Part shown: one piece after another, positions 1,016 through 5,853 of the stretch
Layout: each line of letters starts with the position of its first letter
How positions within the stretch are numbered: the first letter of the stretch is position 1
Source of the DNA: Acidobacteriota bacterium
GTDB lineage: Bacteria; Acidobacteriota; Thermoanaerobaculia; Multivoradales; Multivoraceae
Direction: 5' to 3'
Length of the DNA: 64,000 nt
NCBI GenBank assembly: GCA_029263415.1
Contig: JAJCXN010000039.1
Coordinates: 1-64,000 of the forward strand
The notes under the pieces: model-generated
What the model was told of the DNA's origin: nothing
What the model saw: only the letters and a program-made list of their open reading frames with translations
The model's database searches: none
Translations under genes and position numbers: made by a program

Positions 1016-3424
1016 ATGAAGCAGCACTTGGCATCGCTCGGCTGGCTCTTACGGTGGTCTTTGGCGATTTCGATTTTGGCAACGGTTGCCTGCTCCCCCT
1101 CCGCGGATGGTCCGTCGAGCTTGCGACTCGTGGATTCGTTCGAAGCCGCGACCGTCCAAGGCACGCCGGATCTTGCGTCCAGCCTCGAGCGAACGGAGTG
1201 GCAGTTCGCAGACGGTCTAGATGGCTGGCAGGCAGGTGCGGGGATTGAGTCCCTGGCGACGCGGGATATCTACTTGGTGGGGCAATCGTCGTTGGAGACG
1301 CCGGTGCTGCACGTTGAATGGCTCGGAGGCTCTTCGAACCCGGACGTACTCGAACAGGTGATCATTCGCGCCAAGGTTTCGGACGGCGACAATCTTTCGG
1401 TGAGCTTCTCACGTCGGGAGAAACTGGATTTCGACGACGTTCTCTCAGGCATGAACGACTTCCCCTGGCAACTTTCGTCGCCGCTGGTCTCTGGTGACGA
1501 GTTCAATACCTACACTCTGCGGGTTGGCGCCACGGCGCGGACTTCGTATCCGGCCTCGTCCATTCGGCACGTCCTGTTGCGCCCGACAGACGCTGCTGGA
1601 GCTCAATTCGAGATCGAGTCGGTCCGGCTGGTCTTCCGCCGCGAACACCTCGCCTCGATCCCATCGGGAGTGAGCTGGCAGGGGCTCGCTGAGATCTACC
1701 GCGAGTCCGTTGTGTCCCGTGCGCCGGAGGACATCCGGTTCGAAGTCGATCTACCCCAGAATCCAGTTTTGGACTTGGCTTTCGGCACGGTCGAAGAGTC
1801 CCCACTCACCTTCCGCGTTTCGGTTGTGACCAGAAGCGCGTCGGAGGAACGCGTGCTGCTTGAGCGCACGCTAAGTACCCCGAATCGCTGGCAGGAGGAG
1901 CAGCTCGATCTCGCGGCGTTTGCCGGGGATTCCGTGGTGCTCTCGCTGCAACTAGAAGCCGAAGATCCGGGTGCGATCGGCTTTTGGGGTGCACCGTCAG
2001 TTCGGCGAAGAGGTGCGCATCTGGCTGGAGCTTCGGCGCCTCGGAACGTGGTTTTCATCATGATCGACACGTTGCGGAGCGACCATCTCGAGGCCTACGG
2101 CTACGGCCGAAACACTGCACCGGCGATCGCCAAGTTGGCATCAGAGGGCACTCTGTTTGCTGACGCCATAGCGCAGGGTGCCTGGACCAAGGTCTCGGTT
2201 CCTTCGATGATGTCGTCCACGTACCCGTCAGCCAACGGTGTGTACGAGCTGTTTCATCGTCTGCCGGCGTCTGCGGACACTCTGGCCGAATCGTTTCGCG
2301 AGGCCGGATACGCCACCTGGGGCGGCTCGGCCAACGGTTTTTCCGGCCGTGCGAACAACCTTCATCAGGGGTTCGAGGTTCTGCACGAGAGGAGTTCCCT
2401 GGTAATTCCAGAGGGACAGCCGCGAGCCAAGACGGCACGACTCCTGAACGATCGCCTTCTCCCTTGGCTCGATACTCACCACGATCTGCCCTTCTTTGTC
2501 TTCTTTCATCCGATCGATCCGCACAGCCCCTATCGTCCTTATCGGCCGTACGACACCATGTGGGCCTCAGCCGATGATGAAGCGACCTACGAGGACTGGA
2601 CGAAGCAGGTCAAGGAGTTGGTCGACGAGCGCAACCGCAACGGCAACCTCCCGCACGCTGAAGATTTAGCGGAGCTTGGTCTCGACCCGGACGAGTTCAA
2701 CCGCATCACGCTCGACTGGTACGACGGCTCAATTCGAGCGGCGGACGTTGAGGTGTCAAGGCTGCTGCAAAAGCTCGAGGAGTTGGGGCTGGCGAAGGAC
2801 ACGTTGGTGGTGTTCGTGAGCGACCACGGCGAAGAGTTCTTCGACCACGAGGGTGGGTTTCACGAGGACAACGTGTACGGCGAGTTGGTCAATGTGCCAC
2901 TGATCTTTCGCTGGCCTGCAGGGCTCGAGGCCGGCGTACGAATTCCCGAGACCGTTGAGATGCTCGACGTGGTGCCAACCGTTCTCGAGCTCATGGGAAT
3001 CAATCAGCCAGAGTCCATGCAGGGCGAAAGCCTCAGGGCGCTGCTCGTTTCGAGCGAGACTCCGCGAAGTGAGGAGCCGGTGGTTTCTGAGTGGAAGCGC
3101 CGAACGGATCAGCTTGGACACGGCGGAGTGGACGCCCAGAGCCTCATTCTCGGCGGCTTCAAACTGGTCCAGAACCTCGTCCGTGAGGGGGAGACGCGAC
3201 CGGCCGAGGTGCCGGAGTTTGAGCTGTATGACCACGCCAGCGACCCGCTCGATCTGAACGATATCGCTGCTGATAACCCGGAGGTGGTCGCAAGGCTCGC
3301 TGATCAGCTGAGCAAGTGGCGGGTGTGGGCTGAATCCGTGAAGCTGCCGACCGACTCGGAGGCGGCTGGATCGCTCGACGCCGAGGAGCTTGATCGGCTG
3401 CGCAGCCTCGGTTACCTGCAGTAG
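1016..3424 (+). CDS. Sulfatase-superfamily lipoprotein
   Basis: The 802-residue protein starts with a lipoprotein-type signal (LATVAC, Cys26), so it is probably anchored in an envelope membrane. Residues 30-340 look like beta-sandwich sequence without a recognised family. The alkaline phosphatase/sulfatase fold starts near residue 342 with NVVFIMIDTLRSD, and the second metal site is SDHGEEFFDHEGG near residue 602. The formylglycine signature C/S-x-P-x-R is not present; the equivalent segment is GAWTKVSVPSMMSS, so a Thr or Ser nucleophile is likely and the substrate could be a sulfate, phosphate or phosphonate ester. GGAGG at 1005-1009 supports the start. No arylsulfatase-activating enzyme is nearby. 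The family is certain and the substrate unknown. Confidence 0.85.
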   Translation: MKQHLASLGWLLRWSLAISILATVACSPSADGPSSLRLVDSFEAATVQGTPDLASSLERTEWQFADGLDGWQAGAGIESLATRDIYLVGQSSLETPVLHVEWLGGSSNPDVLEQVIIRAKVSDGDNLSVSFSRREKLDFDDVLSGMNDFPWQLSSPLVSGDEFNTYTLRVGATARTSYPASSIRHVLLRPTDAAGAQFEIESVRLVFRREHLASIPSGVSWQGLAEIYRESVVSRAPEDIRFEVDLPQNPVLDLAFGTVEESPLTFRVSVVTRSASEERVLLERTLSTPNRWQEEQLDLAAFAGDSVVLSLQLEAEDPGAIGFWGAPSVRRRGAHLAGASAPRNVVFIMIDTLRSDHLEAYGYGRNTAPAIAKLASEGTLFADAIAQGAWTKVSVPSMMSSTYPSANGVYELFHRLPASADTLAESFREAGYATWGGSANGFSGRANNLHQGFEVLHERSSLVIPEGQPRAKTARLLNDRLLPWLDTHHDLPFFVFFHPIDPHSPYRPYRPYDTMWASADDEATYEDWTKQVKELVDERNRNGNLPHAEDLAELGLDPDEFNRITLDWYDGSIRAADVEVSRLLQKLEELGLAKDTLVVFVSDHGEEFFDHEGGFHEDNVYGELVNVPLIFRWPAGLEAGVRIPETVEMLDVVPTVLELMGINQPESMQGESLRALLVSSETPRSEEPVVSEWKRRTDQLGHGGVDAQSLILGGFKLVQNLVREGETRPAEVPEFELYDHASDPLDLNDIAADNPEVVARLADQLSKWRVWAESVKLPTDSEAAGSLDAEELDRLRSLGYLQ

Positions 3425-3603: not shown

Positions 3604-4701
3604 CTAGGGTTTGAACTTGGGGTTGTAGTTCTCCGGGCCGACGCTGCGCACGTCTTCAAGCCAGCCACTTTCGTAGGGCCATGCGTCCGGGTCGTTTTCG
3701 GAGGGACCCTGCCAGAAGCGGGCGAAGGGACCTTCCGCCCCGCCTTCGAGGGACCATGCCTGCCGCCGGAAGGTCCAACTGTCGGGTACCAGCCGATGTG
3801 CTTCGCGGAAGTGCGCCACGGCTCCTTCGTGGTCGCCGTTCACTTCCAGGTGAGAGGCCAGTTCGAAGTGTGCGTGACCTGTTGCGACCGAGGTGGACCG
3901 CGGGCGTGATCGCTCGAGGACCTCGTTGGGGCTCAAGGCGAACGGGCTTCCTTGCCCGTTCTCGACCCAGTCCCTCAGGGCCTGGTGGTACTCGGCTGCG
4001 TCGTTGGGAATCTTCTTGGCTTCCCGGGCCATGAGACGAAAGCGTTCCGGGACCGGGCCGCCAGGTCTAGGGCCCGGAGTCCGTTCGACCGGAGGCGCTG
4101 GTGCTGGCTCTGGAGGACGAACGATGTCTCCTTCCTCGTTCACCCAGAAAGCGCTAGGAATGTTGATCACGCCGAAGCGGCTGGCAAGAAGATGATGGGT
4201 GTCGAGAAGTGCCGGGTGCGATTGGCTCGTTGCTTCAATGAAGTGTGCGCAACCTTCCGCACCAAGAGTGTCGAGCCCAACGGTGACCAGCTCGAACCCC
4301 TTAGGGGCGAGCTCGTCGCGCAGTTCCTGCCACACGGGCAGGTCAGCGGAGCATCCTCAGTAGGGTGCCCAGGCGTAGACCAGCACCTTCTTGCCGCGAA
4401 GCGAGGCCAAGTGGAAGGGAGTTCCTTCGAGCGTCGGGAGTTCGAATTCCGCTTGAACGTCGCTCAGAGCCCGGCCGCCGCTCGAGGCGGGGCCGAGAGC
4501 CCAGAGGCTCCGTTCGCTGTCGTGAACGATGGGAAGACGCATGGCTTTGGCGAGATCCTCAAGCTGGACGAGGTCGCTGTCGATGGTCCCGGCGGGAAGC
4601 GGGATGCACACGGCGCCACGGCAGGCACCCTCAGGCTTGAGCTCCCAGCCGGTGCCGTTTTTGAAGTCTTGCTTGGAAACGCTTGGGGTCGTTGTGATCA
4701 T
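3604..4701 (-). CDS. ResA-like redoxin, predicted selenoprotein (in-frame UGA)
   Basis: Two minus-strand reading frames, 4701-4357 and 4335-3604, are in the same phase and are separated only by one TGA (4357-4359) and seven further sense codons. Read through, they give a 365-residue thioredoxin-fold protein. The UGA falls exactly in the active site, WAPY-U-GC, where thioredoxin-like relatives have Cys as in WASWCGC, so Sec115 and Cys117 would form the redox pair. The next residues, SADLPVWQELRDEL, and the cis-Pro-like INIPSAFWV segment are intact. The N-terminus has an extra Cys pair (GACRGAVC), and the C-terminal third looks TPR-like. I recall a named ResA-like family defined by a WAxxUGC motif, which fits. 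A hairpin meeting bacterial SECIS rules lies at 4326-4342. The alternative is a Cys-to-stop mutation, since TGC to TGA is one change, next to IS debris. GAGG precedes the ATG closely. Confidence 0.75.
4326..4342 (-). promoter_or_regulatory. Candidate bacterial SECIS hairpin
   Basis: In the mRNA, 14 nt after the UGA, CCUGCC (4342-4337) pairs perfectly with GGCAGG (4331-4326) around the 5-nt loop CGUGU. The loop begins 20 nt after UGA, and its second base is G. Known bacterial SECIS rules ask for a small apical loop 16-37 nt from UGA with a G in its first two positions, and this hairpin meets them. It lies within coding sequence, as bacterial SECIS elements do. Confidence 0.6.
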
Positions 4702-4779: not shown

Positions 4780-5853
4780 TTGTTGAACGCGCGGATTGTC
4801 AACTGCCGGACTTCGGCCTACGGTGGTCATCTCTACGAATGCGACTCGTGTCACCACCGGCATCCCGCCTACAACTCCTGCTGAAATCGGCACTGCCCGA
4901 AGTGCCAAACGCTGGCCAAGGAGCGTTGGCTGGAGCATCGGCAAGCAGAGCTTCTGTCGGTCGGCTACTTCCACATCGTCTTCACCATTCCCGACACCCT
5001 GCGCCCGCTCTTTCGCGGTAACCCAAGGGTGTTGTACGACCTCCTCTTTCGCGCAGCGAGTCGGACCATCGTCTAGATCGGTCTTGATCCGGACCGCCTC
5101 GGAGCCCGCGTGGGCGTATTTGCGATCTTGCATACCTGGAGCCAAACGCTCAGCTACCACCCGCACGTGCACTGCATCGTTCCTGGTGGCGGCCTGACCG
5201 TCGAGGGCGATGGCTGGCTGCCTTGCCGACCGTCGCAATTACTTCGCGCCAGTGAAAGTCATGGGCCGGCTGTTCCGAGGCAAGATGCTGTCTGGACTCA
5301 AGCGACGATGGCAGTCTCTGACCTTCGGTGGTCCTTTGAGATCGCTCGCGTCCCGATCGGCCTTCGAGCGGCTCCTCGCGCCGCTCTATGAGACTGACTG
5401 GATTGTCTACTGTCACCCACCATTCGGCAGTACGCGTCGGGTGCTCAGTTACCTGGCTCGCTACCCCCATCGCGTAGCAATCAGCAATGATCGCGTCGAG
5501 CGTTTCGACCAGGGTCAAGTCTCGATCCGCTATCGCGTCTCCCGCTCGTATCGCCGGTTCCGCCGTCTCCGGCTGTCCACGACCGAGTTTCTCAGCCGCT
5601 TTGTAGGCCACGTCCTGCCTCGAGGCTTTGTGCGCATCCGAGCTACGGATTACTCGCCAACCGATGCCGGGCGGGTTGCTTGGCACAATGCCGAATTGCT
5701 CTTCGTGCGCGGCGGCCAAAGGAGCGGCGCGAGACGACCTGGCAACAGCTCTACCAGCAGCTCACTGGCCGGGACCCTTTGCAGTGTCCCCGATGCTGCG
5801 AAGGAACGCTGAAGCCCATGGGTGTGCTGAGCCGAGCAGGTCCGCCACCCTAG
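4780..5853 (+). pseudogene. IS91-family transposase remnant
   Basis: Translated pieces in order match an IS91/IS801-type transposase. The zinc-binding start is NCRTSAYGGHLYECDSC, then NRHCPKCQTLAKERW, then FHIVFTIPDTLRPLF, then HTWSQTLSYHPHVHCIVPGGG, then YLARYPHRVAISNDRV, and a C-terminal WQQLYQQLTGRDPLQCPRCC ending at TAG 5851-5853. The frame is broken by a TGA at 4882-4884 where relatives have Arg (a CGA to TGA change would explain it), by a TAG near 5074, and by at least two frameshifts (near 5235 and 5715). The element is dead. It sits directly upstream of the predicted selenoprotein gene on the other strand and may have displaced that gene's original promoter. Terminal sequences were not identified. 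Confidence 0.85.

Follow-up and report, generated by a model that had tools for sequence, protein, structure and literature searches.

A predicted selenoprotein of the ResA-like WAxxUGC family in an Acidobacteriota genome

The 64,000-nt stretch of DNA analysed here (the window) comes from an Acidobacteriota lineage that is probably uncultured. A gene on its minus strand looks interrupted but is, very likely, a functional selenoprotein gene. Comparative analysis leads us to predict with high confidence that the read-through frame is a genuine bacterial selenoprotein and that it belongs to the NCBIfam family NF041054.

Results and Discussion

Gene, reading frame and family

The gene, its key elements and the transposase remnant next to it are located as follows.

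3604..4701, minus strand: predicted selenoprotein gene (365 aa, Sec115, stop codon TAG; 458.7 bits on NF041054)
4357..4359, minus strand: in-frame UGA read as selenocysteine, residue 115 (column Sec 55, Cys 25 in 80 loci)
4351..4353, minus strand: presumed resolving Cys117 in U-G-C (no variation among the 19 rows of alignment A1 or the 68 rows of A3)
4326..4342, minus strand: bacterial SECIS-like hairpin (6-bp stem, 4342-4337 with 4331-4326; loop 4336-4332, CGUGU)
4789..5812 (start approximate), plus strand: decayed Y2_Tnp transposase remnant, adjoining the 5' end of the gene and outside the selenoprotein

Read from 4701 to 3604, the frame contains 114 codons, the UGA (4359-4357), 250 further codons and a TAG, and the TGA is its sole interruption. 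An earlier note on this DNA had joined two in-phase minus-strand frames across a single TGA at 4357-4359, which is correct to the base. The WAPY-U-GC motif that it described, with a Cys two residues on, is present (active site WAPY-U-GC-SADLPVWQ, Cys at +2 from Sec), the 250 codons after the UGA are open, and the match to NF041054 runs across the whole length. Read with U, the protein scored 458.7 bits on this model (WAxxUGC_long; cut-off 300) over profile positions 1-353 of 354. NCBIfam names the family "ResA-like WAxxUGC motif-containing protein", and the window gene carries its WAxxUGC motif as WAPYUGC with UGA at U. When nine other members were scored, six of them Cys forms (L087, L084, L093, L105, L129, L126) and three Sec forms (L100, L104, L115), all nine reached at least the cut-off (300.1 to 545.7 bits). 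Since both kinds reach it, the model does not tell the two apart. The ResA-like WAxxUGC family mentioned in the note exists as NF041054; the proposed new selenoprotein is a new member but not a new family, and a known family had been allowed for.

The Y2_Tnp remnant (4789..5812, plus strand), which we take to be IS91-type, contains an in-frame TGA and TAG plus a frame change. One of its stops, a TGA, sits within a Cys-rich motif, YNSC-TGA-NRHCPKC, and could mimic a selenoprotein site; another stop and a frame change come after it. The convergent neighbour (window 1016-3424, plus strand) is a sulfatase-family protein (Pfam PF00884).

Crude ORF clustering around the 80 family loci described below, with a greedy ORF choice that sometimes kept an antisense ORF over the family gene itself, revealed no neighbour common to the family, and so no substrate could be guessed from context. 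An HtrA-like ORF, named by eye, recurs in 12 loci of the sponge-type clade; inspection by eye of the window ORF list showed nothing HtrA-like beside the window gene. At 7 loci a phosphotransferase-like ORF lies close to a Cys member (Frankia, Pseudomonadota and Verrucomicrobiota), and P450-like and enoyl-CoA-hydratase-like ORFs were seen near some Cys members, all named by eye (loci concerned: L085, L087-L090, L094-L096, L098).

Conservation of the Sec/Cys position

At E 1e-30 the family was found in 21 of the 98 surrounding genomes (the window's own included), and all 22 matched places in them have exactly one in-frame TGA, the window genome's own two included. Further stops in close relatives, which the note had named as a possible objection, were thus absent inside the matched stretch. 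Three of the 23 other genomes of the window's family (G010, G015, G022) gave no match at this threshold. In the phylum sample, 24 of 396 genomes matched at E 1e-25; among the listed matches covering the active site, two lacked the TGA, namely a Cys form with WASWCGC (L054) and an ordinary CGPC thioredoxin-like protein (L064). A plasmid search at E 1e-20 in one collection, from which own-genome records may be left out, returned no relative.

A contig scan with the single protein as query confirmed no relative, whereas a scan with alignment A1 gave 183 relatives among 201 stretches. The best 80 of these 183 were kept as loci for the column, CX4C and neighbourhood counts; for alignment A3, 20 near repeats among the 80 were removed. 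In these 80 loci the UGA column holds Sec in 55 and Cys in 25, so that every homologue aligned there has one or the other; of the two patterns used for the scan, one had Cys at the position, and the ratio is therefore biased towards Cys. The nearest relatives are Acidobacteriota MAGs, including Thermoanaerobaculia, Holophagales and Candidatus Multivorans thiocomprendens, and these relatives of the protein suggest an Acidobacteriota origin for the window too. Beyond this phylum, Sec forms were seen in Chloroflexota, Binatota, Myxococcota, Planctomycetota and others; Cys forms were seen in Actinomycetota (Frankia and others), Pseudomonadota, Verrucomicrobiota, Myxococcota, Planctomycetota and Chloroflexota.

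Selection was estimated on 17 full-length rows from genomes of the window's own family, the window gene being left out. After the UGA the median dN/dS was 0.12 and the highest value 0.20 (133 pairs); before it the median was 0.18 (134 pairs). These values show purifying selection on the region downstream of the UGA in the relatives. The tree needs only 4 Sec/Cys changes, and few of the switches are independent. The selA test was given all 25 Cys loci and 25 of the 55 Sec loci, together 49 genomes: selA exceeded its cut-off in 24 of 25 Sec genomes and in 10 of 24 Cys genomes (p 3.4e-5, uncorrected). Four of these ten Cys genomes, in Frankia, have partial matches, and one Sec genome (G484, 1.4 Mb) lacks selA over the cut-off.

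SECIS-like hairpin in the window

The hairpin CCUGCC-CGUGU-GGCAGG starts 14 nt after the UGA and its loop begins 20 nt after it. All 6 bp are Watson-Crick, and the 5-nt loop has G as its second base. The rules for bacterial SECIS elements in the Fig. 2 legend of PMC13188914 are a stem of 4-16 bp, a loop of 3-9 nt with G in the first two positions, a spacing of 16-37 nt and a minimum free energy of at most -7.5 kcal/mol; the window hairpin agrees with them (6 bp, 5 nt, G second, 20 nt, and -18.5 kcal/mol for a 53-nt stretch). The stem, loop, placing and rules given in the note were all borne out.

Folding of the mRNA, which the note had proposed, gives -18.5 kcal/mol for that 53-nt stretch, but as a single-sequence energy this is unremarkable (z -1.41 against shuffles, 18 of 200 being as good), and the same test on two relatives gave z values of -0.61 and -0.31. 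Of the 1991 TGA triplets on both window strands, 39 (2.0%) are followed by a 6-bp Watson-Crick hairpin that satisfies the rules on spacing, loop and G; the number is 408 when G-U pairs are allowed, and four when the loop has exactly 5 nt. As 2.0% of TGA triplets have a comparable hairpin and the z score is unremarkable, UGA position and hairpin in one sequence are suggestive, not proof. The coincidence that the note had called unlikely is thus only moderately rare for the hairpin taken alone, but the family-wide evidence lifts the case far above chance. An Rfam search of a 201-nt region returned two matches only, both far below their gathering scores.

Hairpin across the family

In 25 Sec sequences 97.3% of stem cells were paired, and sliding the partner lowered pairing to 28.0-75.3%. 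The number of stem cells paired, the number of double-change cells and the covariation score were each above all 500 shuffles. The pairs with a change on both sides (2; reached by 89 of 500 shuffles) and the further pair types (3; reached by 390 of 500) were not exceptional.

For the comparison of Sec with Cys forms, the 80 loci plus 15 loci of further genomes were collapsed to 88 distinct windows. L012, L051, L053, L064 and L065 were left out, as were 15 of the 17 loci L034-L050, judged repeats of L070-L083 and L103. Complete 5-bp stems whose loop has G as its second base were found in 62 of 63 Sec windows and in 4 of 25 Cys windows (Fisher p 2.6e-15, with no correction for kinship); the Sec row L059 has a mismatch in the stem. 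The codon giving the loop G encodes Gly or Val in 63/63 Sec rows, and Leu, Ile or Ala in 17/25 Cys rows. Of the four Cys rows that keep the hairpin, three are in selA genomes (not significant, p 0.27).

Synonymous positions also showed coupling among the 63 Sec rows. The Leu and Gln codons were combined as CTG/CAG in 55 rows, TTG/CAA in 7, CTG/CAA in 1 and TTG/CAG in none, and the outer pair (bases 30 and 46) was T/A in 21, neither in 38 and mixed in 4. Under kinship-aware counting the codon coupling gave 3 independent pairs on starred branches (median p 0.25), and bases 30/46 gave 5 independent pairs (median p 0.5). For hairpin against Sec/Cys, averaged over 200 pairings of 4 independent pairs, 2.8 went the same way, 0.0 the other way and 1.2 showed no difference (median p 0.25). 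This one family holds several Sec/Cys switches; most Sec forms keep the hairpin, and most Cys forms lack it.

Selenocysteine machinery and genetic code

The window's genome (6.89 Mb, 60 contigs, 99.2% complete) contains the whole machinery that was searched for: selA (457.7 bits, cut-off 268), selB (329 bits, cut-off 242), selD (two joined pieces, 249.2 bits together, cut-off 125) and a tRNA-Sec (71.1 bits, anticodon tca), which ARAGORN also names tRNA-Sec. The tRNA-Sec model also matches tRNA-Ser genes, one of them at 49.3 bits, over the cut-off of 47; ARAGORN names that one tRNA-Ser. The selD gene (L030/L031, C23:163515-164576) lies inside an 833-aa open frame and is perhaps a fusion with another domain.

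A normal prfB is present (486.7 bits, cut-off 370). TGA terminates 10 of the 29 window ORFs of at least 250 aa, counted as ORFs rather than verified genes after 5 of 34 were left out as overlapping or dubious. As prfB is present and these ORFs end in TGA, UGA is a normal stop that is recoded at chosen places, and the view of the note that UGA ends other genes and that global recoding is not the explanation holds as far as tested. Missing selenocysteine machinery, homologues with neither Cys nor Sec, and further stops in close relatives had been set beforehand as outcomes that would speak against a selenoprotein; all three were looked for, none was found, and the selenoprotein reading is supported.

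Other selenoprotein candidates in the genome

The genome carries a second WAxxUGC paralogue (L010:1117-2349, minus strand, contig C36; motif WASWUGC) with its own UGA and the same hairpin; it scored 265.6 bits on NF041054, under the cut-off. Its N-terminus is signal-like by eye, and from its sequence the protein looks exported.

Another candidate (L012:1366-2790; C46:107076-108500 of the same genome, plus strand) is a 475-aa ResA-like protein with TPR, the motif FASWUAGC and a single TGA. At E 1e-40 it was found in 6 of 60 genomes (own included) with one TGA each, and no NCBIfam model reaches its cut-off on it. The sequence CGTGCC-CGGGT-GGCAYG was seen by eye after the TGA; the 57-nt minimum-energy fold of the own copy does not show this hairpin.

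Protein architecture and predicted location

The predicted protein has three parts.

4462..4701, minus strand: N-terminal domain, residues 1-80, with an invariant CX4C (Cys27, Cys32; CX4C in 80/80 loci; model pLDDT 87.9)
4120..4452, minus strand: redoxin domain (AhpC-TSA / ResA-like thioredoxin fold), residues 84-194 (Pfam PF00578, 46.4 bits, cut-off 26)
3781..3873, minus strand: C-terminal helical TPR-like region, residues 277-307 (Pfam TPR_2, E 6e-4; helical in the model)

The AlphaFold2 model, built from a 68-row alignment, has a pLDDT of 93.3 and a pTM of 0.91. For the redoxin part, ResA structures lead the Foldseek list (E 3e-10). In VIA comparisons the ResA structure 2f9s_A gave Z 13.1 (rmsd 2.4, 135 aligned) and the DsbE-type protein 3gl3_A gave Z 14.0 (rmsd 2.1, 138 aligned). 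The TPR_2 match is weak (20.1 bits, below the gathering score of 27).

Searches with the N-terminal domain returned little. Foldseek against the PDB found no match at E 0.001 or better (best E 0.42), the best VIA Z was only 2.3, and the PDB sequence search gave a best E of 0.34. No Pfam family matched the window copy, and none was matched by more than one of 58 members. This lack of matches does not show a new fold. Both models place Cys27 and Cys32 on opposing strands of a β-hairpin (strands 25-28 and 31-33), an arrangement that suggests a cross-strand redox disulfide.

The frame of the window copy starts 4 residues before the Met, which leaves no room for a signal peptide. A crude hydropathy measure finds a hydrophobic N-terminus in none of the 32 loci assigned to the window gene's clade and in 21 of the 48 loci of the other clade; the branch dividing the two clades has an SH-aLRT of 85 and is not starred. 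The membrane-anchored or exported character of ResA/TlpA was not seen in the window protein, and the window copy looks cytosolic by its sequence.

Proposed function

In thioredoxin-fold chemistry a nucleophile attacks, a nearby Cys resolves and a reductant resets the pair. For the window protein we propose that SelB and Sec-tRNA(Sec) would decode the UGA at 4359-4357 as Sec115 under the direction of the hairpin that follows it. The product would be a ResA/TlpA-fold redoxin with a catalytic Sec-Gly-Cys, spaced as CxC, placed between the CX4C domain and the TPR-like tail. The Sec115 selenolate would attack a disulfide or another oxidised sulfur substrate, and Cys117 would then resolve the product, leaving a Sec-Cys selenenylsulfide. 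A cellular thiol donor could then reduce this again or, on a more speculative view, the protein's own Cys27/Cys32 pair could do so. Sec insertion itself, like the redox reaction, the substrate and the relay, is something that we infer. Fold and motif suggest that the reaction is probably disulfide exchange by a selenol-disulfide oxidoreductase.

In a cytosolic protein an invariant CX4C makes a purely structural disulfide less likely, which by inference leaves an internal relay or a metal site as two readings. We tentatively put forward a self-contained two-centre redox relay, in which the U-G-C redoxin centre might be serviced by the protein's own N-terminal CX4C pair; it would be cytosolic in one clade and outside the cytoplasmic membrane in at least part of the other. 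The passages on UGC proteins found in the literature make no mention of a two-centre relay of this kind. The architecture of CX4C, UGC and TPR-like tail can be expressed and assayed.

Alternative explanations

A pseudogene, with a Cys codon turned into the UGA stop by ordinary nonsense mutation and the surroundings decayed by transposon insertion, would fit the adjoining transposase, since this remnant with its own in-frame TGA shows that the region contains dead DNA. However, all 22 matched places share the same single TGA, as do 55 of the 80 loci, from several phyla, and what follows it evolves under purifying selection in relatives and stays open for 250 codons in the window gene; with the UGA conserved in relatives this reading was rejected as very improbable. 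Still less probable, to the point of being negligible, is that UGA is read genome-wide as another amino acid or suppressed without selenium: no point in its support was found, and it was rejected on the presence of prfB (486.7 bits, cut-off 370), the 10 of 29 long window ORFs that end in TGA and the Sec machinery.

A further alternative keeps the selenoprotein part of the preferred explanation and differs in function only. Sec would be inserted, and the protein might act as a peroxidase, in metal or metalloid handling with CX4C and UGC as ligands, or as a chaperone-like TPR adaptor. The redoxin domain also matches AhpC-TSA and, below cut-off, glutathione peroxidase, and the protein has a CX4C that is kept with KPxG and has no match found among solved folds, as well as the TPR-like tail. 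The best structural matches are nevertheless the thiol-disulfide oxidoreductases ResA, DsbE-type and TlpA, and Cys117, two residues from Sec115, suggests a resolving partner. We regard such another role as possible but doubtful, and retain the predicted selenol-disulfide oxidoreductase as the preferred reading.

Comparison with known systems

The family is named in a public database but is hardly studied, and its architecture is under-described. Literature searches found no paper on the CX4C, UGC and TPR-like architecture, none joining 'selenoprotein' with 'Thermoanaerobaculia', and no use of the term WAxxUGC; the main text of the 2026 review does not name NF041054 (PMC13188914). One Prx-like sequence with UXC appears in a table of the 2005 Sargasso Sea survey (PMC1088965), 'Prx-like (UGC-containing)' selenoproteins were tabulated in 2008 from the Global Ocean Sampling survey (PMC2398784), and the UGC type is listed in reviews of 2022 (PMC9312934) and 2026 (PMC13188914), the latter with the wording 'UGC-containing TlpA disulfide reductase family protein'. 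As the selenoprotein class itself had already been predicted, the surprise is limited.

By description, the window protein and the Global Ocean Sampling proteins have in common a UGC motif in an AhpC-TSA/TlpA-type (pfam00578) domain (PMC2398784, PMC9312934). The passages found on the UGC proteins in the survey and in the 2026 review mention neither an N-terminal CX4C domain nor a TPR tail (PMC2398784, PMC13188914).

Like ResA, TlpA and CcmG, the window protein is predicted by the model to have a thioredoxin-like redoxin fold. Its motif differs from the CxxC of ResA and TlpA in being UGC, one residue shorter, with U/C-G-C in 80/80 loci. It also differs from ResA, TlpA and CcmG in its extra N- and C-terminal parts, without a signal-like segment in the window copy, and it scores 49.2 bits on the ResA model PRK03147 of NCBIfam, below the cut-off of 170. 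The match to NF041054 means that the class is already known: compared with this family no difference of substance was found, and the window gene stands as an additional member, 64-67% identical to the nearest ones.
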